21,773 nt of DNA from a virus, in IMG/VR virus record IMGVR_UViG_3300021376_005093, positions 1-21,773 of that record; one strand, written 5' to 3'. Below are positions 1,945 to 8,292 of this stretch, piece by piece. The notes under the pieces are model-generated. The model was not told the DNA's origin. It made no database searches and saw only the letters and a list, made by a program, of their open reading frames with translations. Each line of letters starts with the position of its first letter. Positions within the stretch are counted from its first letter, which is position 1. Made by a program: the position numbers and the translations under genes.

Positions 1945-2444
1945 ATAAATTCGAACGCATAACGCCTGAACAATCCCATTTTTATAAATGGCTAGATCCT
2001 GATAAATTATCTTCTGAAGAGGTTTGTCGTAAGGCAACAGCGTTTACTCTTATTCCTTGTAACGAACCGGGATGGGCAGGATGGGAAGAAGTAAAATATT
2101 ATCAAGATTCACCTGTTGATGCTGATGGTAATTTAAAACCAACTGAATTTGTTTATGTATTAGTAAATAAATCTATTCCTGGGATGGTTAAAATAGGAAT
2201 GACAATACGTAATGTAGATGAACGTGCTAAAGAAATATCTGGTGCTACTGGTGTACCAACACCTTGGGTTCCTGTTTATTCATTTCAATGTTTTAATTCA
2301 TATGAATTAGAACAAGAAATACATTCTTATCTTGATGCTATCCGCGTTAATGAGAATAGAGAAATGTTTGCTATATCATCTACAGATGCAATTAAAATTA
2401 TTAAACAATTAGGAAAAAAATATACTCAACATGAACCCAGCTAA
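1941..2444 (+). CDS. T5orf172-domain (GIY-YIG-like) protein (167 aa)
   Basis: Residues about 70-145 fit the T5orf172/MUG113 domain, a relative of the GIY-YIG nuclease fold. The signs are F-V-Y-V-L-V-N at 70-76, V-K-I-G-M-T at 83-88, an Arg/Glu-rich helix after it, a strand ending P-V-Y-S-F-Q-C, and Y-E-L-E-Q-E-I-H-S-Y-L followed by N-R-E-M-F. Residues 1-69 are a separate segment rich in Trp and acidic residues. Known members are phage and mobile-element proteins of mostly undefined function; nuclease activity is possible but unproven. It overlaps the upstream gene by 4 bases and the downstream gene by 14. Confidence 0.75.
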   Translation: MNKFERITPEQSHFYKWLDPDKLSSEEVCRKATAFTLIPCNEPGWAGWEEVKYYQDSPVDADGNLKPTEFVYVLVNKSIPGMVKIGMTIRNVDERAKEISGATGVPTPWVPVYSFQCFNSYELEQEIHSYLDAIRVNENREMFAISSTDAIKIIKQLGKKYTQHEPS

Positions 2445-2679
2445 TCTAAAACGCTACGCCTTTCGTAAACATAAAATTAAACTAAAAGACACATCTCAAG
2501 AGGATGCGTATAATGAAAATTACGCTATCAATAAAATAACAGATATTCTTGAGGCAAATGGTGTTGATGAACAAACAATTAGTAATTATATTAACGACAT
2601 ATTTAGCTACGATAGTTATGAGCCGTACGCTGAAATGAGTGAACAAGATATACTACAAGATTTTTATGATTGGAAATAA
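2431..2679 (+). CDS. Small hypothetical protein (82 aa)
   Basis: The start overlaps the end of the T5orf172-type gene by 14 bases, a common arrangement in this genome. The first 20 residues are basic (N-L-K-R-Y-A-F-R-K-H-K) and the rest is acidic and probably helical, ending D-F-Y-D-W-K. No membrane segment or metal-binding motif is present. The family is not recognised. Confidence 0.65.
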   Translation: MNPANLKRYAFRKHKIKLKDTSQEDAYNENYAINKITDILEANGVDEQTISNYINDIFSYDSYEPYAEMSEQDILQDFYDWK

Positions 2680-2680
2680 T

Positions 2681-2836
2681 ATGATAATTATTTTTCTTGC
2701 ATATTTAATGATTGGGTGTTTAATAATTTCTGTTCAATTAGAAAACGCACCTATGTATGATGAAATAAATGATAAATTCATCTACAAAGAGTGGTACACC
2801 ATATTTGGCATTAAAATAAAGCGAAATAAAAAATGA
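2681..2836 (+). CDS. Small single-pass membrane protein (51 aa)
   Basis: I place the start at the ATG at 2681, one base after the previous stop; the frame is open back to an ATG at 2639, but that would overlap the preceding gene by 41 bases for little gain. Residues 1-17 are hydrophobic (MIIIFLAYLMIGCLIISV), giving one N-terminal membrane segment, or an uncleaved signal, followed by about 33 mostly polar residues with a basic end. The stop overlaps the bS21 start by ATGA. Function unknown; an envelope protein is likely. Confidence 0.6.
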   Translation: MIIIFLAYLMIGCLIISVQLENAPMYDEINDKFIYKEWYTIFGIKIKRNKK

Positions 2837-3021
2837 TAATTGTTGATGTACAAAAATATAAGAGCATAGACCAAGCGCTTAAACAATACAAGAATAAACA
2901 TAACAAATTGGGTATTGTTAAAGAATTACGTGCACGACAAGCTTATACTAAACCATCTGTTACACGTAGAGAAGAAATACTCAACGCAGTATATAAAGAA
3001 AAAAAGTATAAAAGGGATTAG
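2833..3021 (+). CDS. rpsU: Ribosomal protein bS21, phage-encoded
   Basis: At 62 residues this matches the usual bS21 length (about 58-71). The order of features fits the family: an N-terminal I-I-V-D-V strand, an acidic/polar helix with I-D-Q-A-L-K-Q-Y-K, a K-L-G-I-V-K-E-L-R-A-R-Q segment, then K-P-S-V-T-R-R and a basic tail. The L-R-A-R-Q and K-P-S-V motifs are the Bacteroidota flavour of bS21. The protein sits on the 30S platform near the 3' end of 16S rRNA and helps mRNA binding. It is the last gene of the left run, translationally coupled by ATGA to a small membrane protein. Phage bS21 genes are known from metagenomic phages; the use made of it here is inference. Confidence 0.88.
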   Translation: MIIVDVQKYKSIDQALKQYKNKHNKLGIVKELRARQAYTKPSVTRREEILNAVYKEKKYKRD

Positions 3022-3057
3022 TTTTAATATATTATGCGGTGCTAAAATACGCGACTT

Positions 3058-3086
3058 TATAGAGCGTTAGTTTCTAACGTACTATA
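3058..3086. promoter_or_regulatory. 29-base palindrome, copy 1 (candidate operator)
   Basis: The site has the form TATAGNGCGTTA - 5 bases - TAACGCNCTATA, centred on 3072. Eleven of 14 position pairs match; the breaks are at pairs 6, 7 and 14. It lies 37 bases after bS21 and 105 bases (centre to -7 box) upstream of the promoter of the RadA-like gene. Two more copies exist at 3107 and 8195. A run of six T lies 8 bases further on, so a weak terminator role is possible as well. Confidence 0.7.
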
Positions 3087-3106
3087 CACATTAATTTTTT
3101 ACCATT

Positions 3107-3135
3107 TATAGAGCGTTAATTATTAACGCGTTATA
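3107..3135. promoter_or_regulatory. 29-base palindrome, copy 2 (candidate operator)
   Basis: Same symmetric pattern as at 3058, centred on 3121, with an unbroken inner stem GCGTTAAT/ATTAACGC around a single T. Twelve of 14 pairs match. Its centre is 49 bases from that of copy 1 and 56 bases upstream of the -7 box at 3177; it ends 17 bases before the TTTG box. A dimeric DNA-binding protein is the expected ligand. Confidence 0.75.
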
Positions 3136-3152
3136 AAGTATTTGTAAACAAA

Positions 3153-3194
3153 TTTGGTTACCCAAAATATTGTTCGTATCTTTACGGAAATTAA
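3153..3194 (+). promoter_or_regulatory. Bacteroidota-type promoter for the RadA-like ATPase
   Basis: The -33 element TTTG lies at 3153-3156 and the -7 element TATCTTTA (consensus TAnnTTTG) at 3177-3184, with 20 bases between. The transcript should start near 3190, leaving a short A-rich leader before the ATG at 3205. The block is duplicated at 8251-8292: GGTTACC follows the -33 box in both, and 3175-3194 is identical to 8273-8292. Confidence 0.8.
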
Positions 3195-3204
3195 AAATTA
3201 AAGT

Positions 3205-4011
3205 ATGAACAAACGTAAAAGAGGTCGTCCGCGCAAGCAAGTCGCTGGATTAGAAGTTGTTAGTGCAAAACAAGTATTCGATGCGTCCATCATTAAAACG
3301 ATGCGCGGTAATGACTTGTATTTTAACAGTAGTATTTTTGAGCCAATGAAAACGCATTCTGAACTTGATACTATATTAAGTACAGAAGGTGGACTTATGC
3401 CTGCTACTAATATGATTCTCATTGGTAGTCCAGGTTCAGGTAAATCTACAGTTGCGCTTGATATGATGGCTAATCTTGTTATGCAAGGTTACAAATGTTT
3501 ATTTGTTAGTGCTGAAATGGATGAAATTGCTTATTACAAGTATTGTCGCCGTTTACCTAAAATTAAGCATGTTCCTGTTTTGTTCCTAAACAACTATCAG
3601 CATCAACTCAAAGAAACAATGGAACACGTATTTGAAGAAGGTTATGATGTTGTATGTATTGATTCTATTGCTGAGGTAATCGAATCGTACAAAATTATAT
3701 ATCGCACAACTGAAAGCGCTGCTGAAAAATGGCTACTTGAGTTACAAACGAAACATAAAAAAGGAGATAATCCGAAAAACTATTATACAACATTTGTTAA
3801 TATTCAGCAAGTAACTAAAGCTGGAGAATTTGTAGGTAGTAATCGTTTGAAACATATGATGGATGCTATGATGCATATTGATCGTTCACGTGATGGTTTA
3901 GAGCGTACAATTCATTTTAGTAAAAACCGTGATTGCGATAAGGATTTTAAAGTACATTTTGCAATTCATAATGATAGTATTCATTATGCATATGAAAATG
4001 TTAATGAATAA
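3205..4011 (+). CDS. RadA/Sms-like RecA-fold ATPase with N-terminal AT-hook (268 aa)
   Basis: Residues 4-11 (R-K-R-G-R-P-R-K) are a full AT-hook. A RecA-fold ATPase follows: Walker A G74-S-P-G-S-G-K80-S-T82, a strand ending F-V-S-A-E at 100-104, and Walker B V-V-C-I-D153-S. The stretch N-I-Q-Q-V-T-K-A-G-E-F-V-G at about 199-211, then L-K-H-M-M-D and F-S-K-N-R-D at 238-243, closely parallels the RadA/Sms sequence V-T-K-E-G...L-E-H-M-V-D...K-N-R-F-G. RadA works in recombination and branch migration, so DNA repair or recombination is the likely role; a replicative helicase-like role is the alternative. The RadA zinc finger and the C-terminal Lon-like domain are absent, and the AT-hook sits where the zinc finger would be. 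The gene has its own promoter and terminator. Confidence 0.82.
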   Translation: MNKRKRGRPRKQVAGLEVVSAKQVFDASIIKTMRGNDLYFNSSIFEPMKTHSELDTILSTEGGLMPATNMILIGSPGSGKSTVALDMMANLVMQGYKCLFVSAEMDEIAYYKYCRRLPKIKHVPVLFLNNYQHQLKETMEHVFEEGYDVVCIDSIAEVIESYKIIYRTTESAAEKWLLELQTKHKKGDNPKNYYTTFVNIQQVTKAGEFVGSNRLKHMMDAMMHIDRSRDGLERTIHFSKNRDCDKDFKVHFAIHNDSIHYAYENVNE

Positions 4012-8149: not shown

Positions 8150-8194
8150 TTTCTACATAACTTAGTCAAAAAAACTACACATTTTAGTTAAATT

Positions 8195-8223
8195 TATAGG
8201 GCGTTAATTACTAACGCTCTATA
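8195..8223. promoter_or_regulatory. 29-base palindrome, copy 3 (candidate operator)
   Basis: Same pattern as at 3058 and 3107 (TATAGNGCGTTA, 5 bases, TAACGCNCTATA), centred on 8209, with 12 of 14 pairs matching, including the complete outer arms TATAG/CTATA. Its centre is 66 bases upstream of the -7 box at 8275, one helical turn more than the 56 bases of copy 2. It lies 45 bases after the FkbM-like gene. Confidence 0.75.
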
Positions 8224-8250
8224 AAACTTCGCAAGATTTCTGCAAAATTC

Positions 8251-8292
8251 TGTGGTTACCTAAGAGATTCAGCGTATCTTTACGGAAATTAA
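8251..8292 (+). promoter_or_regulatory. Bacteroidota-type promoter for the gene at 8322
   Basis: TGTG at 8251-8254 (one mismatch to TTTG) and TATCTTTA at 8275-8282 are 20 bases apart. The block is a second copy of the promoter at 3153: GGTTACC at 8254-8260 and the 20 bases at 8273-8292 are shared at identical spacing. The transcript would begin near 8288, and the leader then runs into the AAAATAAAGGTTAT element before the ATG. Confidence 0.75.

Follow-up and report, generated by a model that had tools for sequence, protein, structure and literature searches.

Phage-encoded bS21 and translation in Bacteroidota

bS21, a small protein that takes part in selecting the mRNAs to be translated, is the commonest ribosomal protein in phages, and Shine–Dalgarno (SD) pairing is blocked in Bacteroidota. 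To our knowledge, the role of bS21 in infection has not yet been tested in this phylum. The 16S tail of Flavobacterium johnsoniae is held by the C-terminal portion of bS21 and diverted by residue Tyr54, which stacks on A1534. The mutation Y54A raises SD-dependent translation and increases the use of strong SDs (PMC9976891).

Replacement of host bS21 by a phage copy, with a resulting bias of translation towards phage mRNA, has already been proposed (PMC6375957, PMC9723584, PMC9976891). Mizuno et al. listed bS21 among the exchangeable ribosomal proteins and observed that the bS21 of Pelagibacter phage HTVC008M enters Escherichia coli 70S ribosomes, with in vitro translation falling to about 5% (PMC6375957). 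Chen et al. reported that phages with bS21 express it late, and located the N-terminal bS21 helix where mRNA would bind (PMC9723584).

A Bacteroidota-type bS21 in the window

The window analysed here is itself a virus record of 21,773 bases, and its open reading frame (ORF) at 2833–3021 encodes bS21, as the preliminary description had proposed (Table 1). The 62-residue protein matched Pfam family PF01165 (Ribosomal_S21) with E = 1.3e-13 and 50.9 bits, above the cut-off of 27, and residues 4–56 aligned with model positions 2–54 of 55, essentially the full length of the family. It also matched PHROG 21469, 'ribosomal protein S21' (1.9e-10). In a PDB sequence search, two Bacteroidota-type chains, 9i5v_9 (8.8e-13) and 7jil_z (6.2e-12), outranked all other bS21 proteins; 7JIL is, according to the literature, the F. 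johnsoniae ribosome. The AlphaFold2 model (mean pLDDT 88) predicts α-helices at residues 12–26, 28–36 and 41–61, and its top fold match was a bS21-length chain from a 30S complex, although this match was weak (E = 0.089).

Table 1. Features at and around the bS21 gene of the window.
Feature	Position	Strand	Remarks
82-aa ORF	2431..2679	+	Earlier member of the closely packed run that ends in bS21; read from sequence
51-aa ORF directly upstream of bS21	2681..2836	+	Hydrophobic N-terminus; last 4 nt (ATGA) shared with the start of bS21
Phage bS21 gene (rpsU-like)	2833..3021	+	62 aa, ATG start; Tyr54; Q14, Q18 and N21 in helix 1
Two palindromic 31-nt repeats (TTTATAGAGCGTTA..TAACG..CTATA), 3′ of bS21	3056..3135		Possible terminator or operator
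Conserved promoter-like block GGTTACC-N13-GTATCTTTACGGAAATTAA	3156..3194	+	Ahead of gene 3205
KaiC/RadA-like P-loop ATPase (gene 3205)	3205..4011	+	First gene past the palindromes; 94% identical in contig L022, 88% in L023

The window bS21 shares approximately 47% identity with the F. johnsoniae protein (7JIL; McNutt et al. 2023, PMC9976891), as well as Tyr54, the three helices and a similar C-terminal half. It differs in that residues R14, R18 and R21 of F. johnsoniae are replaced by Gln, Gln and Asn. The genes differ as well: F. johnsoniae rpsU is autoregulated and carries an extended SD (PMC9976891), whereas the window gene lacks an SD and overlaps its upstream neighbour by 4 nt.

The freshwater Bacteroidetes phages of Chen et al. 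2022 (PMC9723584) also encode a bS21 that is nearest to Bacteroidetes bS21 yet stands apart from the host proteins, with an aromatic residue at position 54 and a diverged N-terminal helix. In those phages, the gene lies on the reverse strand amid terminase, capsid and portal genes, whereas the window gene lies on the same strand as its predicted neighbours and ends a run of small genes before the RadA/KaiC-like ATPase. Chen et al. named residues R21, F23, D25 and T28; here, positions 10, 14, 18 and 21 separate host from phage well, and host proteins of the Saprospiraceae type can carry His23 too. HTVC008M (Mizuno et al. 2019, PMC6375957), a large lytic phage, resembles the window phage in encoding a bS21 with a non-basic Gln18 for which host replacement is proposed. 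Its bS21, however, belongs to an alphaproteobacterial lineage, lacks Tyr54 and is basic at positions 14 and 21.

A phage lineage with a rewritten helix 1

The comparison set was drawn from 80 bacterial and 80 viral loci plus loci found earlier, and comprised 73 host and 50 viral distinct proteins. The viral loci were the nearest 80 of 431, and the search pattern admitted only Gln, Arg or Ser at position 14 but left positions 18 and 21 unconstrained. A second host set (n = 33) was collected without a sequence pattern.

In a maximum-likelihood tree, 48 of the 50 viral proteins grouped apart from all 73 host proteins with support of 99/95, values read from few alignment columns and with a bootstrap that had not settled. 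The window bS21 fell within this supported group and belongs to an ancient branch made up of viral proteins alone. The idea that the gene was recently captured from one of the sampled hosts was rejected, as the best bacterial bS21 proteins are 62–64% identical and phage relatives reach 75%. The two viral proteins placed among hosts come from contigs L187 and L191. The former (L187:3001–3198) is a Chryseobacterium-like bS21 with His54 in place of Tyr54, and represents either a recent host capture or a misassigned contig.

The window protein has Tyr54, as do 48/48 distinct members of the phage clade. The C-terminal half is largely conserved, and the window bS21 retains residues K40, S42, V43 and R46. 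The strongest differences between host and phage lie at positions 10, 21, 18, 24 and 14. Hosts carry an acidic residue at position 10 (E10) and basic residues at positions 14, 18 and 21 (R14, R18 and R21). All three of the latter are basic in 69/72 hosts and in 29/33 proteins of the second set, whereas 45/48 members of the phage clade have no basic residue at any of them. The window protein carries K10, Q14, Q18 and N21.

Positions 14, 18 and 21 lie within the first predicted helix, and the differing sites fall on one side of it (helical-moment shuffle, p about 0.009), with residues K17, K20 and K22 unchanged. Total charge is the same (+11.0 vs +11.3) but shifted, the N-terminal stretch being more positive and helix 1 less so.

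Residues at the signature sites vary within the phage clade (Q/V/S/T/A/I/L at position 18; N/F/S at position 21), with a median pairwise identity of 55%. As positions 14, 18 and 21 stay non-basic in 45/48 members despite this turnover, the pattern resembles constraint more than recent common descent, although the split between host and phage can partly reflect a single ancestral change inherited by the clade. The signature is a property of the window's clade rather than a rule for phage bS21, because the more distant proteins of two huge phages (L238 and L240) and a faecal record (L241) keep the host-like basic residues. Two further huge-phage proteins (L237 and L239) are intermediate at these sites, and those of Pelagibacter, Methylophilales and PA5oct phages have a basic residue at position 21 but not at position 18.

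These patterns bear on a rival account of the gene, plain dosage, in which a phage bS21 that behaves like the host one merely supplements a late-binding protein that is loosely held, so that every 30S subunit is complete during the burst, with the sequence differences being drift in a fast-evolving lineage. Retention of Tyr54 and the C-terminal residues fits this account, as do the exchangeability of bS21 (PMC6375957) and the accessory status of the gene, which is missing at the locus in near kin (see below). Drift, however, predicts neither a change confined to one helix face with K17, K20 and K22 fixed, nor positions 18 and 21 staying non-basic while the identity of the residue changes. Dosage is thus regarded as a possible but distinctly less probable explanation.

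Start signals and gene neighbourhood

The sequence upstream of the bS21 gene is GCATTAAAATAAAGCGAAATAAAAA, with an SD length of 0, and the extended SD of autoregulated Flavobacteriales rpsU is absent from it. Across the window, 2/37 starts showed SD complementarity of at least 4 nt against 1.8 expected from shuffles, so the earlier statement that most genes here lack an SD was right. Loss of the SD as a general phage trait was discarded, because few host bS21 genes carry one either (8/73 vs 6.2 expected).

The preliminary description had further supposed that a phage copy could change how the anti-SD is covered. The observations favour the opposite: Tyr54, K40, S42, V43 and R46 are kept, the window phage has no SDs that would profit, and the change lies in helix 1. 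Taken in one of its two directions, that idea would have phage bS21 let the 16S tail go and thereby favour SD-bearing phage mRNAs. Two phage relatives (L209 and L226) do carry AAAGGAGG ahead of their own bS21 genes, but the invariance of Tyr54 across the clade and an SD frequency in the window no higher than chance make release of the anti-SD the least probable of the explanations weighed, and a very improbable one.

The 4-nt overlap between the 51-aa ORF and bS21, the final gene of the plus-strand run of small ORFs, suggests that bS21 may be translationally coupled to this ORF. An upstream ORF overlaps bS21 in 8/50 distinct phage genes vs 0/72 host genes, and lies within 20 nt without overlap in a further 6/50 phage genes vs 4/72 host genes. 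The 51-aa ORF itself, searched in a longer GTG form from position 2639, had no family match in Pfam or PHROG. A conserved bS21 neighbour is not claimed, since the upstream partners vary among phages (a short hydrophobic ORF, a basic ORF and, by eye, an IscU-like protein).

The absence of a family match for the adjacent ORF also weighs on a third alternative, host shut-off. Here, phage bS21 would act as a dominant poison that slows host initiation and frees resources, with another factor sparing phage mRNAs. The near halt of E. coli in vitro translation caused by HTVC008M bS21 (PMC6375957) keeps this explanation alive, but that experiment used a distant host and no candidate sparing factor was identified beside the window gene; shut-off is therefore judged unlikely. 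In other phages, bS21 is annotated beside IF-3 and an L7/L12/ClpS-like adaptor gene (L236, Vibrio phage 2.275.O), or beside ClpX and near ClpS (L235, Pseudomonas phage PA5oct); these neighbours are possible factors for host bS21 exchange.

Downstream of bS21, the palindromic repeat is followed approximately 20–40 nt on by the promoter-like block. The block recurs in the window at 8254–8292 and in relatives L020, L022 and L023, and the paired arrangement is found at 3056–3194 and 8192–8292 of the window and in the same three relatives. The two elements are likely to form a phage regulatory unit, or a terminator plus a promoter. The strict Bacteroidota promoter TTTG-N17-23-TAnnTTTG had 0 matches in the window vs 2 expected by chance, and only the lineage-specific block is therefore reported.

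The virus, its relatives and its probable host

A search of the phage collection returned no close DNA relative or near-identical record of the window. Among the window proteins tested against Pfam and PHROG, no terminase or capsid gene was recognised, the window being a fragment. Relatives of genes 16641 and 3205 occur in many IMG/VR contigs. Of these, L022 and L023 are the nearest for gene 3205 and have other sequence in the place of bS21 upstream of it; in L022 (positions 1–1100), this is an apparent run of minus-strand tRNA genes, read by eye from the sequence. ARAGORN found no tRNA in the window.

bS21 was likewise found in 0/36 related contigs searched whole, themselves fragments. Given this and its absence from the locus in the nearest kin, bS21 is an accessory gene within the window's phage group. 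The closest proteins to the window bS21 (66–75% identity) come from phages in which, near bS21, no other gene in common with the window was detectable, which suggests that the gene has been exchanged between phages.

The nearest bacterial bS21 proteins are those of Bacteroidota, with Saprospiraceae and Phaeodactylibacter first (62–64% identity). An order-wide search of 248 genomes, covering the order of Phaeodactylibacter luteus, gave a best bS21 of 62%. Flavobacterium phages encode distant relatives of protein 16641. Together with a TonB-dependent receptor gene in a close relative of the window phage, these matches lend indirect support to the earlier proposal of a Bacteroidota host, which is likely at the level of the phylum, with the order not settled. 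The receptor (L243:10041–12557, IMGVR_UViG_3300008116_006782; 838 aa, Plug and CarboxypepD_reg-like) lies between two phage genes and is missing from the syntenic relative L242 (6934–8525); it is either a phage-borne outer-membrane receptor or the product of a chimeric assembly.

Multiple bS21 paralogues occur in Saprospirales. P. luteus has two bS21 genes, and a Phaeodactylibacter MAG (L245; G044 contig 731) has three in tandem within approximately 1.5 kb and a fourth elsewhere in the genome.

A proposed model for bS21 replacement

In the preferred explanation, which is also the simplest, phage bS21 would replace host bS21, keep the anti-SD masked and alter mRNA handling through its helix-1 face; the product of the gene would be a working bS21 paralogue from a lineage confined to phages. 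A probability of roughly one in two is given to this explanation as a whole. It is proposed that bS21 is translated during infection through coupling to the preceding gene, without an SD, and that the protein then enters host 30S subunits and displaces host bS21. The conserved C-terminal half and Tyr54 would keep the 16S tail in the bS21–bS18–bS6 pocket. Retention of Tyr54 is the argument for continued masking, and with phage genes that lack SDs, unmasking the anti-SD would bring no gain. The rewritten helix-1 face (K10, Q14, Q18 and N21 in place of E10, R14, R18 and R21) would alter the hold of the 30S platform on SD-less leaders, and initiation would thereby come to favour phage messages or to disfavour those of the host. 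The earlier suggestion that a phage bS21 might take the place of the host protein and skew translation towards phage mRNA is plausible.

The kind of gene, the host phylum and the hypothesis have been published (PMC6375957, PMC9723584, PMC9976891). New here are this member of the family, its different gene neighbourhood, a sharper helix-1 signature that adds positions 14 and 18 to the published 21, and the second, pattern-free host set; part of the signature may already be visible in logos in the supplementary data of the published papers. It is tentatively suggested that a widespread phage-only bS21 lineage splits two jobs, keeping anti-SD masking at the Tyr54 end and presenting a neutral helix-1 face, such that specialised ribosomes might choose phage leaders without SD pairing. 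The two-part signature, a masking end that is kept and one helix face that is neutralised, defines a small, testable set of residues.
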